A DNA stretch of 64,000 nt, taken from positions 1,408,457 through 1,472,456 of the forward strand of contig NZ_JACXLC010000001.1 in NCBI RefSeq assembly GCF_014705715.1. Reading direction: 5' to 3'. This DNA comes from Erythrobacter rubeus (GTDB lineage: Bacteria > Pseudomonadota > Alphaproteobacteria > Sphingomonadales > Sphingomonadaceae). Shown one piece after another: positions 34,857-61,058 of the stretch. Under the pieces are notes generated by a model, which worked only from the letters and a program-made list of their open reading frames with translations, ran no database searches and was not told the DNA's origin. The position numbers were made by a program, and so were the translations under genes. Each line of letters begins with the position of its first letter. The stretch's first letter is position 1.

Positions 34857-34892
34857 GTTATGCGATGGCGGGGCTGCCCGGCACGAGCCGAT

Positions 34893-35060
34893 TGAACATC
34901 CCTGAGGCTATAAGCAATCCATCGGGAGCTGTCCCTGCTCTGGAACACGGGTTCGTCCTGGGAACCGGGGCATACGGCGCCCACCTGACGTTTTCGCGTC
35001 AGTGGATTTCTCTGGCAACGACCCATGGTGGTCCCGTCATCATTTGTTGGCCTCAAGCGC
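34893..35060 (+). ncRNA. ssrS: 6S RNA
   Basis: The region between zapA and 5-formyl-THF cyclo-ligase is the classic site of 6S RNA, which binds sigma-70 RNA polymerase as an open-promoter mimic. The sequence fits. The segment CCCTGAGGCTATAAGC resembles the E. coli 6S CCCUGAGCCGAUAU region. TGAGGC (34903-34908) can pair with GCCTCA (35050-35055) as a closing stem. Inner stems include CGGGA/TCCCG, GGTTC/GAACC, and CCACCTGACG with CGTCAGTGG. Both ends are approximate to about 15 bases. Confidence 0.75.
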
Positions 35061-56585: not shown

Positions 56586-59348
<2,763 letters not shown>

Positions 59349-59419
59349 GGGAGAGGGTAGCCTTGAATTGCGTGCAGCCCGTGGGCGGGCTCGAAAACAC
59401 ATGAATATGTAAGGGGTGT

Positions 59420-59485
59420 TCGCGCAATGAGCGCGCGAGGGTTACGATAGAATTTCTTGGGAGCGCGCTATTCGTATGCGCGCTC
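59420..59485 (-). promoter_or_regulatory. Alternative hairpins in the secA leader, spanning the upstream stop codon
   Basis: On the minus strand, the last codons of the upstream gene contain GAGCGCGC (59485-59478). This can pair with GCGCGCTC just past its stop codon (59468-59461, 9-base loop) or with a second identical GCGCGCTC at 59436-59429. The second copy can also form its own hairpin (TCGCGC/GCGCGA, 59420-59438). These pairings exclude one another, the layout of a leader whose fold depends on where a ribosome stands. A further stem AGCCCG-CCCA-CGGGCT lies at 59377-59392 near the secA ribosome site. Confidence 0.45.
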
Positions 59486-59743
59486 AATCCCCATCAGCAC
59501 CGGCATACGCAAGGAGCGCGGACGCGGCGTGCGCCGTTCGATCCGCGAACCCTTGGCATCCGACAAGGTCTTACCCGGGCCCTGCTTTGTCTGAGCCCGC
59601 TCGCCTGTCAGCACGTCTTCGGAAGCCGCAGAAACGCTGGAATCGCAAGGGACTGGTTGGGACGCATATGACGCAGCCGCCGGCACGCTGAGCGCGGCGA
59701 GCCCCGAAATCAGGGCCAGAAAGGCTAAAAGTCTTCGCGTCAT
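59468..59743 (-). CDS. Small exported protein upstream of secA (91 aa), candidate secretion monitor
   Basis: A 91-residue protein with a clear signal peptide (RRLLAFLALISGLAALSVPAAASYA) and a short mature part that is basic near the end: ERRTPRPRSLRMPVLMGIERAYE. The start at 59743 is the only methionine ahead of the signal peptide that makes sense; longer in-frame extensions look non-coding, and no strong ribosome site is seen. The gene lies 119 bases upstream of secA on the same strand, and its final codons are part of a leader hairpin. I recognise no family. The GIERA end resembles, by eye, the GIRAGP arrest end of E. coli SecM; this may be chance. Confidence 0.65.
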   Translation of the reverse strand: MTRRLLAFLALISGLAALSVPAAASYASQPVPCDSSVSAASEDVLTGERAQTKQGPGKTLSDAKGSRIERRTPRPRSLRMPVLMGIERAYE

Positions 59744-59831
59744 TGGCGCACAAGATAGTGGTTTTGGCCCCACTCGTCCACTTCCTTTGCCGGATTTACT
59801 GTGAGCGGACGGTCGCCTAAGCGGTTGCGCC

Positions 59832-61058
59832 ATGGATCTCGCCGTATCGCCGCTCGCCCTGTCCTTTCCCGAAATGCCGCCTATCGACGGTGTGACGTTG
59901 CGCGCCGCGCGGGCGCGGTACAAGGATTGGAACCGCGCGGACCTCACCTATGTCGAGCTGTCGGAAGGGACCGCCCTCGCGGGCGTCTTCACCCGATCGC
60001 TATGCGCCTCCAGCGAGGTAGAATTGGGGCGTGAGCAGGTGAGAGGCGGTCGTGCCCGCGCACTCGTCGTCAACGCGGGTAACGCCAATGCCTTTACCGG
60101 CTATCGCGGACGCGAAGCGGTCGAGGCGATCATGAAACAGACGGCGGAGCACATTGGTTGCTTGCCTGTAGAAGTGCTGGTTTCCTCGACCGGCGTGATC
60201 GGCGTACCCCTGCCGCAGGACAAAGCACGCCAAGGGCTCGCCGCAGCATTCGCCGCCGATATCGCCGGATGGGAAGACGCCGCCACGGCGATCGGAACGA
60301 CCGACACCTTCGCGAAAGGCGCGCATGCCTCCGCCATGATCGGCGAGCAGCGCGTCGAGCTTTGCGGGATCATCAAAGGCTCCGGCATGATCGCCCCCGA
60401 CATGGCGACAATGCTCGGCTACGTCTTCACCGATGCAGCGGTAGAGCCTGCTTTCCTGCAGAACTTGCTGAATGCCGCGACCGCCGAGACGTTCAACTGC
60501 ATTACCGTAGACGGCGACACTTCGACGAGCGACACCGTGCTCGTGTTCGCAACGGGCAAAGCGGATCATGCAGTGATCGATAGCTGGGAAAGTCCGGGCG
60601 CCGATGCATTCGCGGCCGCTCTCACCGATGTCTGCCGCAACCTCGCGCAGCTCGTGGTGCGCGACGGAGAAGGAGCGAGCAAATTCATCAATGTCCGGGT
60701 TTCCGGCGCAGTTAGCGATGACAGCGCCCGCAAAGTCGGCCTCGCCATCGCAAACTCGCCGCTCGTAAAAACAGCGATTGCCGGAGAAGACGCCAATTGG
60801 GGCCGCGTTGTCATGGCGGTCGGCAAAGCAGGCGAACCGGCCGACCGTGACAGGCTCTCGATCGGTTTCGGGGGAGTATGGGCGGCGCGCGACGGCCTGC
60901 CTGTCGAAGATTACGACGAAACGCCCGTCGCCGAGCACTTGAAGGGCAAAGAGATCGAACTCGCGGTCGATCTCGGCATGGGCAGCGGCCGGGCTGTCGT
61001 ATGGACATGCGATCTCACCCACGGATACATTTCGATCAACGCGGATTATCGGAGCTGA
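59832..61058 (+). CDS. argJ: Bifunctional glutamate N-acetyltransferase/ornithine acetyltransferase
   Basis: ArgJ recycles the acetyl group between N-acetylornithine and glutamate in arginine synthesis. The 408-residue precursor self-cleaves before a conserved Thr: GSGMIAPDMATMLGYVFTDA carries the ATM site with Thr193 as the new N-terminal nucleophile. Other motifs are VVNAGNANAFTG, SSTGVIGVPLP and TVDGDTSTSDT. A full bifunctional role is likely but the mono-functional form cannot be excluded by sequence alone. A GFA gene follows after one base. Confidence 0.95.
   Translation: MDLAVSPLALSFPEMPPIDGVTLRAARARYKDWNRADLTYVELSEGTALAGVFTRSLCASSEVELGREQVRGGRARALVVNAGNANAFTGYRGREAVEAIMKQTAEHIGCLPVEVLVSSTGVIGVPLPQDKARQGLAAAFAADIAGWEDAATAIGTTDTFAKGAHASAMIGEQRVELCGIIKGSGMIAPDMATMLGYVFTDAAVEPAFLQNLLNAATAETFNCITVDGDTSTSDTVLVFATGKADHAVIDSWESPGADAFAAALTDVCRNLAQLVVRDGEGASKFINVRVSGAVSDDSARKVGLAIANSPLVKTAIAGEDANWGRVVMAVGKAGEPADRDRLSIGFGGVWAARDGLPVEDYDETPVAEHLKGKEIELAVDLGMGSGRAVVWTCDLTHGYISINADYRS

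Follow-up and report, generated by a model that had tools for sequence, protein, structure and literature searches.

Stalling of the ribosome on SecM opens the ribosome-binding site of secA by refolding the leader RNA. SecM, found in the Enterobacterales, is an exported upstream open reading frame (uORF) that lies directly before secA and carries a conserved C-terminal motif, FxxxxWIxxxxGIRAGP, whose A-site proline is critical (PMC10951299, in the sections drawn on here). In other phyla, a Sec/YidC screen describes exported uORFs of sec genes that end in N-S-P, N-A-P or D-G-M-K; their conserved residues run up to the stop codon, and in uORFs of secA and secDF that codon is itself required for arrest (PMC10987492, main sections). 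The same source describes ApdP, an alphaproteobacterial Sec-pathway arrest peptide located upstream of secDF, and the orders it names for this peptide, in a list ending "and others", do not include Sphingomonadales. Stalling can also be read out by masking of Rho, as the relevant sections of two further reports describe: a ribosome stalled at the stop codon of TnaC in E. coli covers a Rho site just downstream (PMC8429421), and CruR of Bordetella is a signal-peptide uORF whose arrest motif lies at the C-terminus and whose readout is termination by Rho in a region richer in C than in G (PMC9426467).

The window analyzed here, a stretch of 64,000 nucleotides from Erythrobacter rubeus, contains a 91-codon open reading frame (ORF) that runs on the minus strand from an ATG at 59743 to a TAG stop at 59468-59470, separated by 119 nt from the ATG of secA (59348) on the same strand; argJ, in the opposite orientation, begins at 59832. 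Coordinates and Pfam matches confirm the layout given in the preliminary description, a 91-residue ORF with a signal peptide just upstream of secA, and the C-terminal end likewise reads RMPVLMGIERAYE, preceded by ERRTPRPRS. The main features are as follows.

59468..59743 (stop codon included), minus strand: 91-codon ORF, candidate Sec-monitoring arrest peptide (sequence, conservation)
59672..59743, minus strand: signal peptide, about residues 1-24, MTRRLLAFLALISGLAALSVPAAA (conserved basic start, hydrophobic core, small residues; predicted helix 2-18)
59471..59521, minus strand: candidate arrest motif, PRSLRMPVLMGIERAYE, the conserved last 17 codons (26 named loci, no tail filter)
59468..59470, minus strand: UAG stop codon (family stop counts)
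56586..59348, minus strand: secA (SecA Pfam domains; conserved start MFDSLM)

Searches of Pfam and NCBIfam returned no match for the ORF, and a search of Rfam with the ORF leader region (59300-59860) returned none. Elsewhere in the window, a 6S RNA gene (Rfam RF00013, 52.9 bits) lies at 34868-35038 on the plus strand.

The ORF presents all four of the sequence features used in the Sec/YidC uORF screen (PMC10987492): it is a small uORF with no known function that immediately precedes secA in the same orientation, it has an N-terminal secretion signal (by sequence pattern and predicted helix), its C-terminal sequence is conserved among homologs, and its spacer, about 65 residues from the signal peptide to the C-terminus, exceeds 30 residues and is close to the median of 71 reported there for the short class of SecM. 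Its conserved residues end at the stop codon, as in the stop-dependent sec uORFs of that source, with [DE]-R-A-x-E as the candidate arrest sequence. It differs from SecM in that its motif abuts the stop codon, in the absence of UGA stops among 107 family members and in its predicted leaderless mRNA, and unmasking of the secA ribosome site finds no support in the models presented below. On reading the tails, neither the SecM motif with its A-site proline (as defined in the sections of PMC10951299 used) nor the C-terminal N-S-P of the uA_NSP-stop type was found, and we reject identity with SecM, the motif and its critical proline being missing. The resemblance to the SecM GIRAGP end proposed in the preliminary description is accordingly a loose one, in which R-A is shared and the A-site proline is not; of the SecM-like monitor proposed there, what stands is a monitor-like ORF that has a conserved C-terminus and probably opens the secA transcript. 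A pattern search for RAPP-like tetrapeptides (RQH, ApdA, ApdP type) across the terminal 60 residues of the 187 ORFs surveyed gave three matches, none of them at the tail, and identity with this class is also rejected. ApdP differs further in its secDF2 target, and CruR in its RAPP motif, its other target genes and a copper sensing that is independent of the signal peptide (PMC10987492 and PMC9426467, respectively, in part). TnaC, a 24-residue tryptophan sensor, ends in UGA and depends on release factor 2, unlike the predicted exported peptide described here, which ends in UAG or UAA.

Literature searches that extended to the main sections of PMC10987492 found no description of a SecM-like regulator of secA in Sphingomonadales, in agreement with the preliminary description. 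The main sections of that source name no class from this order, and term searches of the available parts of an earlier screen (PMC7897499) and of a 2025 paper on RAPP-like peptides (PMC12992588) retrieved no mention of Sphingomonadales organisms.

Judging from sequence comparisons, we estimate a probability of roughly 0.72 that the ORF is the first cistron of the secA transcript and encodes a Sec-exported monitoring peptide exerting pause-and-release control over secA.

Conservation and selection of the upstream reading frame

A single-sequence search matched the ORF in 21 of 199 genomes of the host's family, and all 21 matches, which have in common a signal peptide, a variable middle and a tail, immediately precede secA in the same orientation. 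A profile built from them matched 165 of 397 genomes of the family, the secA neighbourhood having been examined for part of these 165. The 32 named loci include Erythrobacter, Porphyrobacter, Altererythrobacter, Parapontixanthobacter and Parerythrobacter records together with a Novosphingobium MAG, and the nearest named relative is Erythrobacter ani (L047; 79% identity in the ORF). The ORF is a genuine member of a conserved family. At 20 secA loci from seven other families of the order, no such ORF was seen by eye among those of at least 45 aa.

A survey anchored on secA comprised 143 loci. One even draw, in which 136 of 139 genomes had secA, supplied 134 of these, two of the 136 genomes (G007 and G070) being omitted because secA is broken or at a contig edge. 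When the upstream ORF was chosen by signal-peptide score alone and the tails were counted by hand, 63 of the 134 even-draw loci ended in [DE][RL][AS]x[EQTKD]-stop, a lower bound because in some genomes the automatic picker missed the right ORF (in G039, for example, the profile finds the real one). Among the 30 loci whose secA is nearest, again with no tail filter, 29 had the same tail and the remaining one was a wrong pick. The C-terminal conservation anticipated in the preliminary description was thus recovered, the tail being kept over many genera in the Sphingomonadales family sampled.

Two further sets were defined by the tail. The larger comprises the 107 sequences with tail [DE][RL][AS]x[EQTKD] among 187 surveyed ORFs, the other 80 being excluded because the tail differed or the wrong ORF had been picked; it keeps near-identical sequences, and p-values computed on it overstate independence because the sequences are related. 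The smaller consists of 28 close relatives picked by a pattern in the tail and was used for codon, alignment and promoter work. Because both sets are tail-selected, their tail statistics are partly circular, and the selection test was rerun without the tail filter. The tail DNA pattern occurs once in the host's own genome, a count that is uninformative because a backward control pattern is equally frequent (one occurrence).

The tail motif common to the family is P-x-x-x-G-x-[DE]-R-A-x-E-stop. Among the 26 named loci taken without tail filter, R-13, P-11, G-7 and R-4 are present in all 26, A-3 in 25 and E-1 in 24, and pN/pS is 0.24 for the last 12 codons and 0.32 for the signal peptide, compared to 0.75 for codons -40 to -17. 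The corresponding values for 30 wider loci, also unfiltered, are 0.49, 0.68 and 1.02, these loci being near saturation and the tail value being 0.44 once the wrong pick is removed; the tail-filtered set yields 0.22 (tail), 0.36 (signal peptide) and 0.76 (middle), which is partly circular. Synonymous changes are common at the P, G, D/E and A positions, where the residues themselves are kept. By these ratios, the tail and, in close relatives, the signal peptide are selected as protein, and the middle hardly so.

Across the 107 sequences the ORF has a length of 90.1 ± 1.9 aa (range 86-97), its mature middle being nearly constant in length and free in sequence. In structure predictions, the sole helix of at least four residues is the signal peptide, and the block pLDDT is 45-55 for the middle, which lacks a confident fold, and 62-75 for the tail. 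A nearly fixed length, a conserved tail and a free middle are what a nascent chain sensed by the ribosome should show, and fall short of proof.

UAG is read by release factor 1 (RF1), UGA by release factor 2 and UAA by both. The 107 ORFs stop at UAG in 98 cases and at UAA in 9, with no instance of UGA, and without the tail filter UAG closes 26 of 26 named loci and 28 of 30 wider loci, the remaining two ending in UAA. In 318 background ORFs from the window and twenty 20-kb stretches, which are mechanical calls of at least 150 aa and not annotated genes, UGA is used 165 times (52%), UAG 81 times and UAA 72 times. Codon choice is similarly skewed within the tail: Arg(-4) is CGC in 103 of 104 arginine codons (50% CGC in the middle of the same ORFs) and Glu(-1) is GAA in 86 of 98 (60% in the middle). 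The stop bias suggests a constraint on termination, a constraint on the RNA being the alternative reading.

Much of this pattern could also arise from a small exported protein, co-transcribed with secA, whose C-terminus acts in the membrane or the periplasm, perhaps as a tail recognized by a protease or a partner, and which involves no control by arrest. A signal peptide followed by a conserved end would suit a degron or docking tail, conservation extends exactly to the C-terminus, and the tail exceeds the middle in pLDDT. However, such a protein would leave unexplained the absence of UGA, the constraint on the Arg(-4) codon and the link to secA, and the mature middle has little conserved sequence and no confident fold. 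We consider this explanation improbable.

Other tails occupy the same position in sister lineages. In the even draw, R-R-x-E or similar tails were counted by hand in 14 of 134 loci and G-x-P tails in 4 of 134, and profiles of the two classes matched 33 and 8 of 249 genomes, respectively, with one of the 33 R-R-x-E matches (G105) sitting away from secA. Exported-type uORFs ending in R-R-x-E-stop, R-R-[QL]-[VI]-stop and the like precede secA at L081, L085, L086, L087, L088, L091, L094, L095, L175, L202, L207, L217, L220, L233 and L239. In other genera of the family, the exported-type uORFs before secA at L079, L156, L162 and L214 end in G-D-[RK]-...-G-[AK]-P-stop, with the terminal proline at the stop; that of L079 is longer, and its middle resembles a TonB-type domain by eye. 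Comparison of the profiles of the D-R-A-x-E (A1) and R-R-x-E-like (A2) classes gave an alignment confined to the signal peptide, too little to establish common descent, and the stops of 20 R-R-x-E-like ORFs are UAG in 12, UAA in 6 and UGA in 2.

Leader RNA and the stop-spanning stem

The preliminary description placed in the last codons of the ORF an element able to pair with either of two downstream copies of its complement, in folds that would exclude one another, and a further stem near the secA ribosome site. The elements themselves were found at the positions below.

59349..59467, minus strand: 119-nt leader, 39% C and 18% G, possible Rho loading region (base composition)
59478..59485, minus strand: 5' arm GAGCGCGC of the stem across the stop codon (sequence, folding)
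59461..59468 (last base of the stop included), minus strand: 3' arm GCGCGCTC of the stop-spanning stem (sequence, folding)
59429..59436, minus strand: second, distal copy of GCGCGCTC (sequence; rare in relatives)
59376..59391, minus strand: stem of 6 bp, AGCCCG-CCCA-CGGGCT, ahead of the secA ribosome site (sequence, alignment)
59361..59364, minus strand: Shine-Dalgarno-like AAGG of secA (sequence, alignment)

Several observations would suit a locus that is mainly an RNA element, in which a stem bridges the stop codon, whether or not its arms have other partners, and conservation of the peptide tail is a by-product. The stem has 8 bp in the window, and a compensated pair change (GAG/GAA with C/T) distinguishes L119 from L047. 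In 63 sequences, the combination of own 5' and 3' pieces folds at -10.1 kcal/mol compared to -9.0 kcal/mol for swapped pieces (0 of 2000 permutations). Covariation links the alanine wobble base to the base that follows the stop (102 sequences, Fisher p=3.9e-9), and native codons out-fold synonymous ones with a mean z of -0.74 (107 sequences). Tree-aware contrasts, however, gave five cases for the stem, two against and three uninformative out of ten (p=0.23), and in sister sequences 88 of 113 changed pairs are broken and 25 kept, with 236 unchanged. Furthermore, the frequent synonymous changes at retained P, G, D/E and A residues argue against this explanation, as does a conserved tail that, at 17 codons, reaches farther back than the stem. 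We regard an element of this kind as very unlikely, and the covariation of the stop-spanning stem as suggestive only.

The two-stem switch is not supported as a family-wide feature. A 7-nt complement at the distal position occurs in 7 of 107 sequences, with 2.8 expected from shuffling, and the alignment shows the 8-nt copy to be absent from the closest relative, L047; pairing with this second copy is rejected as a family feature. RNAalifold found no meaningful leader structure in the 28 close relatives, and the stem near the secA ribosome site shows a weak excess among close relatives (longest perfect stem 5.0 bp on average, 4.0 bp after shuffling). When a ribosome was modelled at the stop codon with pairs under its footprint forbidden, the mean unpaired probability of the secA start region went from 0.523 to 0.530 (p=0.74), and this model lends no support to a SecM-type unmasking of the secA ribosome site. 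For the window, the model pairs the secA ribosome site with a stretch of codons some 40 nt ahead of the stop, and the value rises from 0.54 to 0.83 when this stretch is blocked, an effect that is absent in the three relatives inspected and amounts to 0.523 to 0.540 in the family mean (p=0.055). The mutually exclusive folds of the preliminary description thus lack support, in view of the rarity of the distal copy, the breakage of the stem where it changes, the tree-aware contrasts and the flat occupancy model, the compensation in L047 notwithstanding.

Base composition sets the family leader apart: C and G make up 36% and 24% of it but 30% and 29% of the 45 intergenic regions taken as controls (p=1.6e-14), and it resembles in this respect the C>G regions tied to Rho in the sections of PMC9426467 considered.

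Putative promoter and transcript of the reading frame

A promoter-like pattern, which like the stop-codon bias goes beyond the preliminary description, lies immediately before the ORF. In the window it consists of two elements.

59775..59780, minus strand: putative -35 element TGGACG (comparative)
59752..59757, minus strand: putative -10 element TATCTT, 8 nt 5' of the ATG (comparative)

The pattern, TNGAC (mostly TGGAC) followed by a 16-17 nt spacer and TAT, precedes the ATG in 28 of 28 close relatives, from which it was derived, and in 93 of 107 family members, 65 of these being among the other 79 sequences. All 28 close relatives have a 17-nt spacer and a pattern that ends 7-9 nt before the ATG, and in 71 of the 93 members with the pattern this distance is 8-9 nt. 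Shuffling of the 107 upstream regions left the pattern in 3, and it occurs ahead of 2 of 405 long control ORFs. The gap between the ORF and secA, where a separate secA promoter would have counted against the preliminary description, contained this conserved type of pattern in 0 of 107 sequences, other promoter types being possible there, and a terminator scan found none on the secA strand. A scan with the E. coli sigma-70 consensus returned no promoter, so that the promoter is proposed by comparison.

In general, transcription starts 6-8 nt past a -10 element. The start is accordingly predicted at or beside the ATG, which would make the mRNA leaderless and secA dependent on this transcript; from the sequence comparison, the ORF is probably leaderless and shares the transcript of secA. 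The promoter-like pattern beside the ATG and the C-rich leader would also fit a leaderless leader ORF that merely holds ribosomes on the nascent secA transcript, for coupling or against Rho, with neither arrest nor export sensing, but this needs neither the signal peptide nor the conserved C-terminal peptide, both of which are retained, and we give it the least credence of the alternatives.

Candidate mechanism of export monitoring

The reading that we favour is that of a monitoring peptide, which is well supported as a hypothesis by the comparative evidence, its stem-switch component being unsupported. The ORF probably encodes an arrest peptide of a new motif that stalls at termination. Beyond conservation, we infer the following steps. 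P-x-x-x-G-x-[DE]-R-A-x-E, positioned at the peptidyl transferase centre, would cause the ribosome to pause. In the favoured register, the last residue, Glu, would occupy the P site and UAG the A site, and release by RF1 would be slow. In an alternative register, the slow step would be the addition of Glu to R-A-x, which corresponds to that of R-A-G-P in SecM minus the proline (PMC10951299, sections used here). If arrest occurs, we lean towards the stop codon as its site, with Glu addition ranked second. The likeness of the candidate motif to proven arrest motifs ends at R-A, and it has no proline beside the peptidyl transferase centre.

Active Sec machinery would then pull on the signal peptide and release the pause, and under poor export the ribosome would stay and secA expression would rise. 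The parked ribosome might be read out in two ways: by covering the start of the C-rich leader and keeping Rho off, as with TnaC and CruR, or by altering leader folding near the secA ribosome site, as with SecM. Rho masking is at least as likely a readout, because the leader is C-rich and G-poor, and we place it slightly below an even chance; leader folding is unlikely, and some other readout, doubtful as well, is a little less so.

Combining these elements gives the most specific form of the proposal: a class of export gauge, undescribed before, that Erythrobacter and its relatives among the Sphingomonadales would encode on a leaderless mRNA, that would rely on RF1-dependent termination arrest at R-A-x-E-stop (UAG or UAA, not UGA) and that would use Rho to set the transcription of secA. 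Sister lineages would have other tails (R-R-x-E-stop, G-x-P-stop) substituted at this position. With all of its parts taken together, this is a tentative proposal that we hold to be possible and rather doubtful.

If true, the monitor would add to the known arrest sequences a motif without proline near the peptidyl transferase centre, and its stop choice would point to RF1, the reverse of TnaC with its UGA and release factor 2. It would then become testable whether a nascent chain can block one release factor and not the other in order to sense protein export, and the large natural alignment, together with the sister tail types, would allow the residues that act on the ribosome to be mapped.
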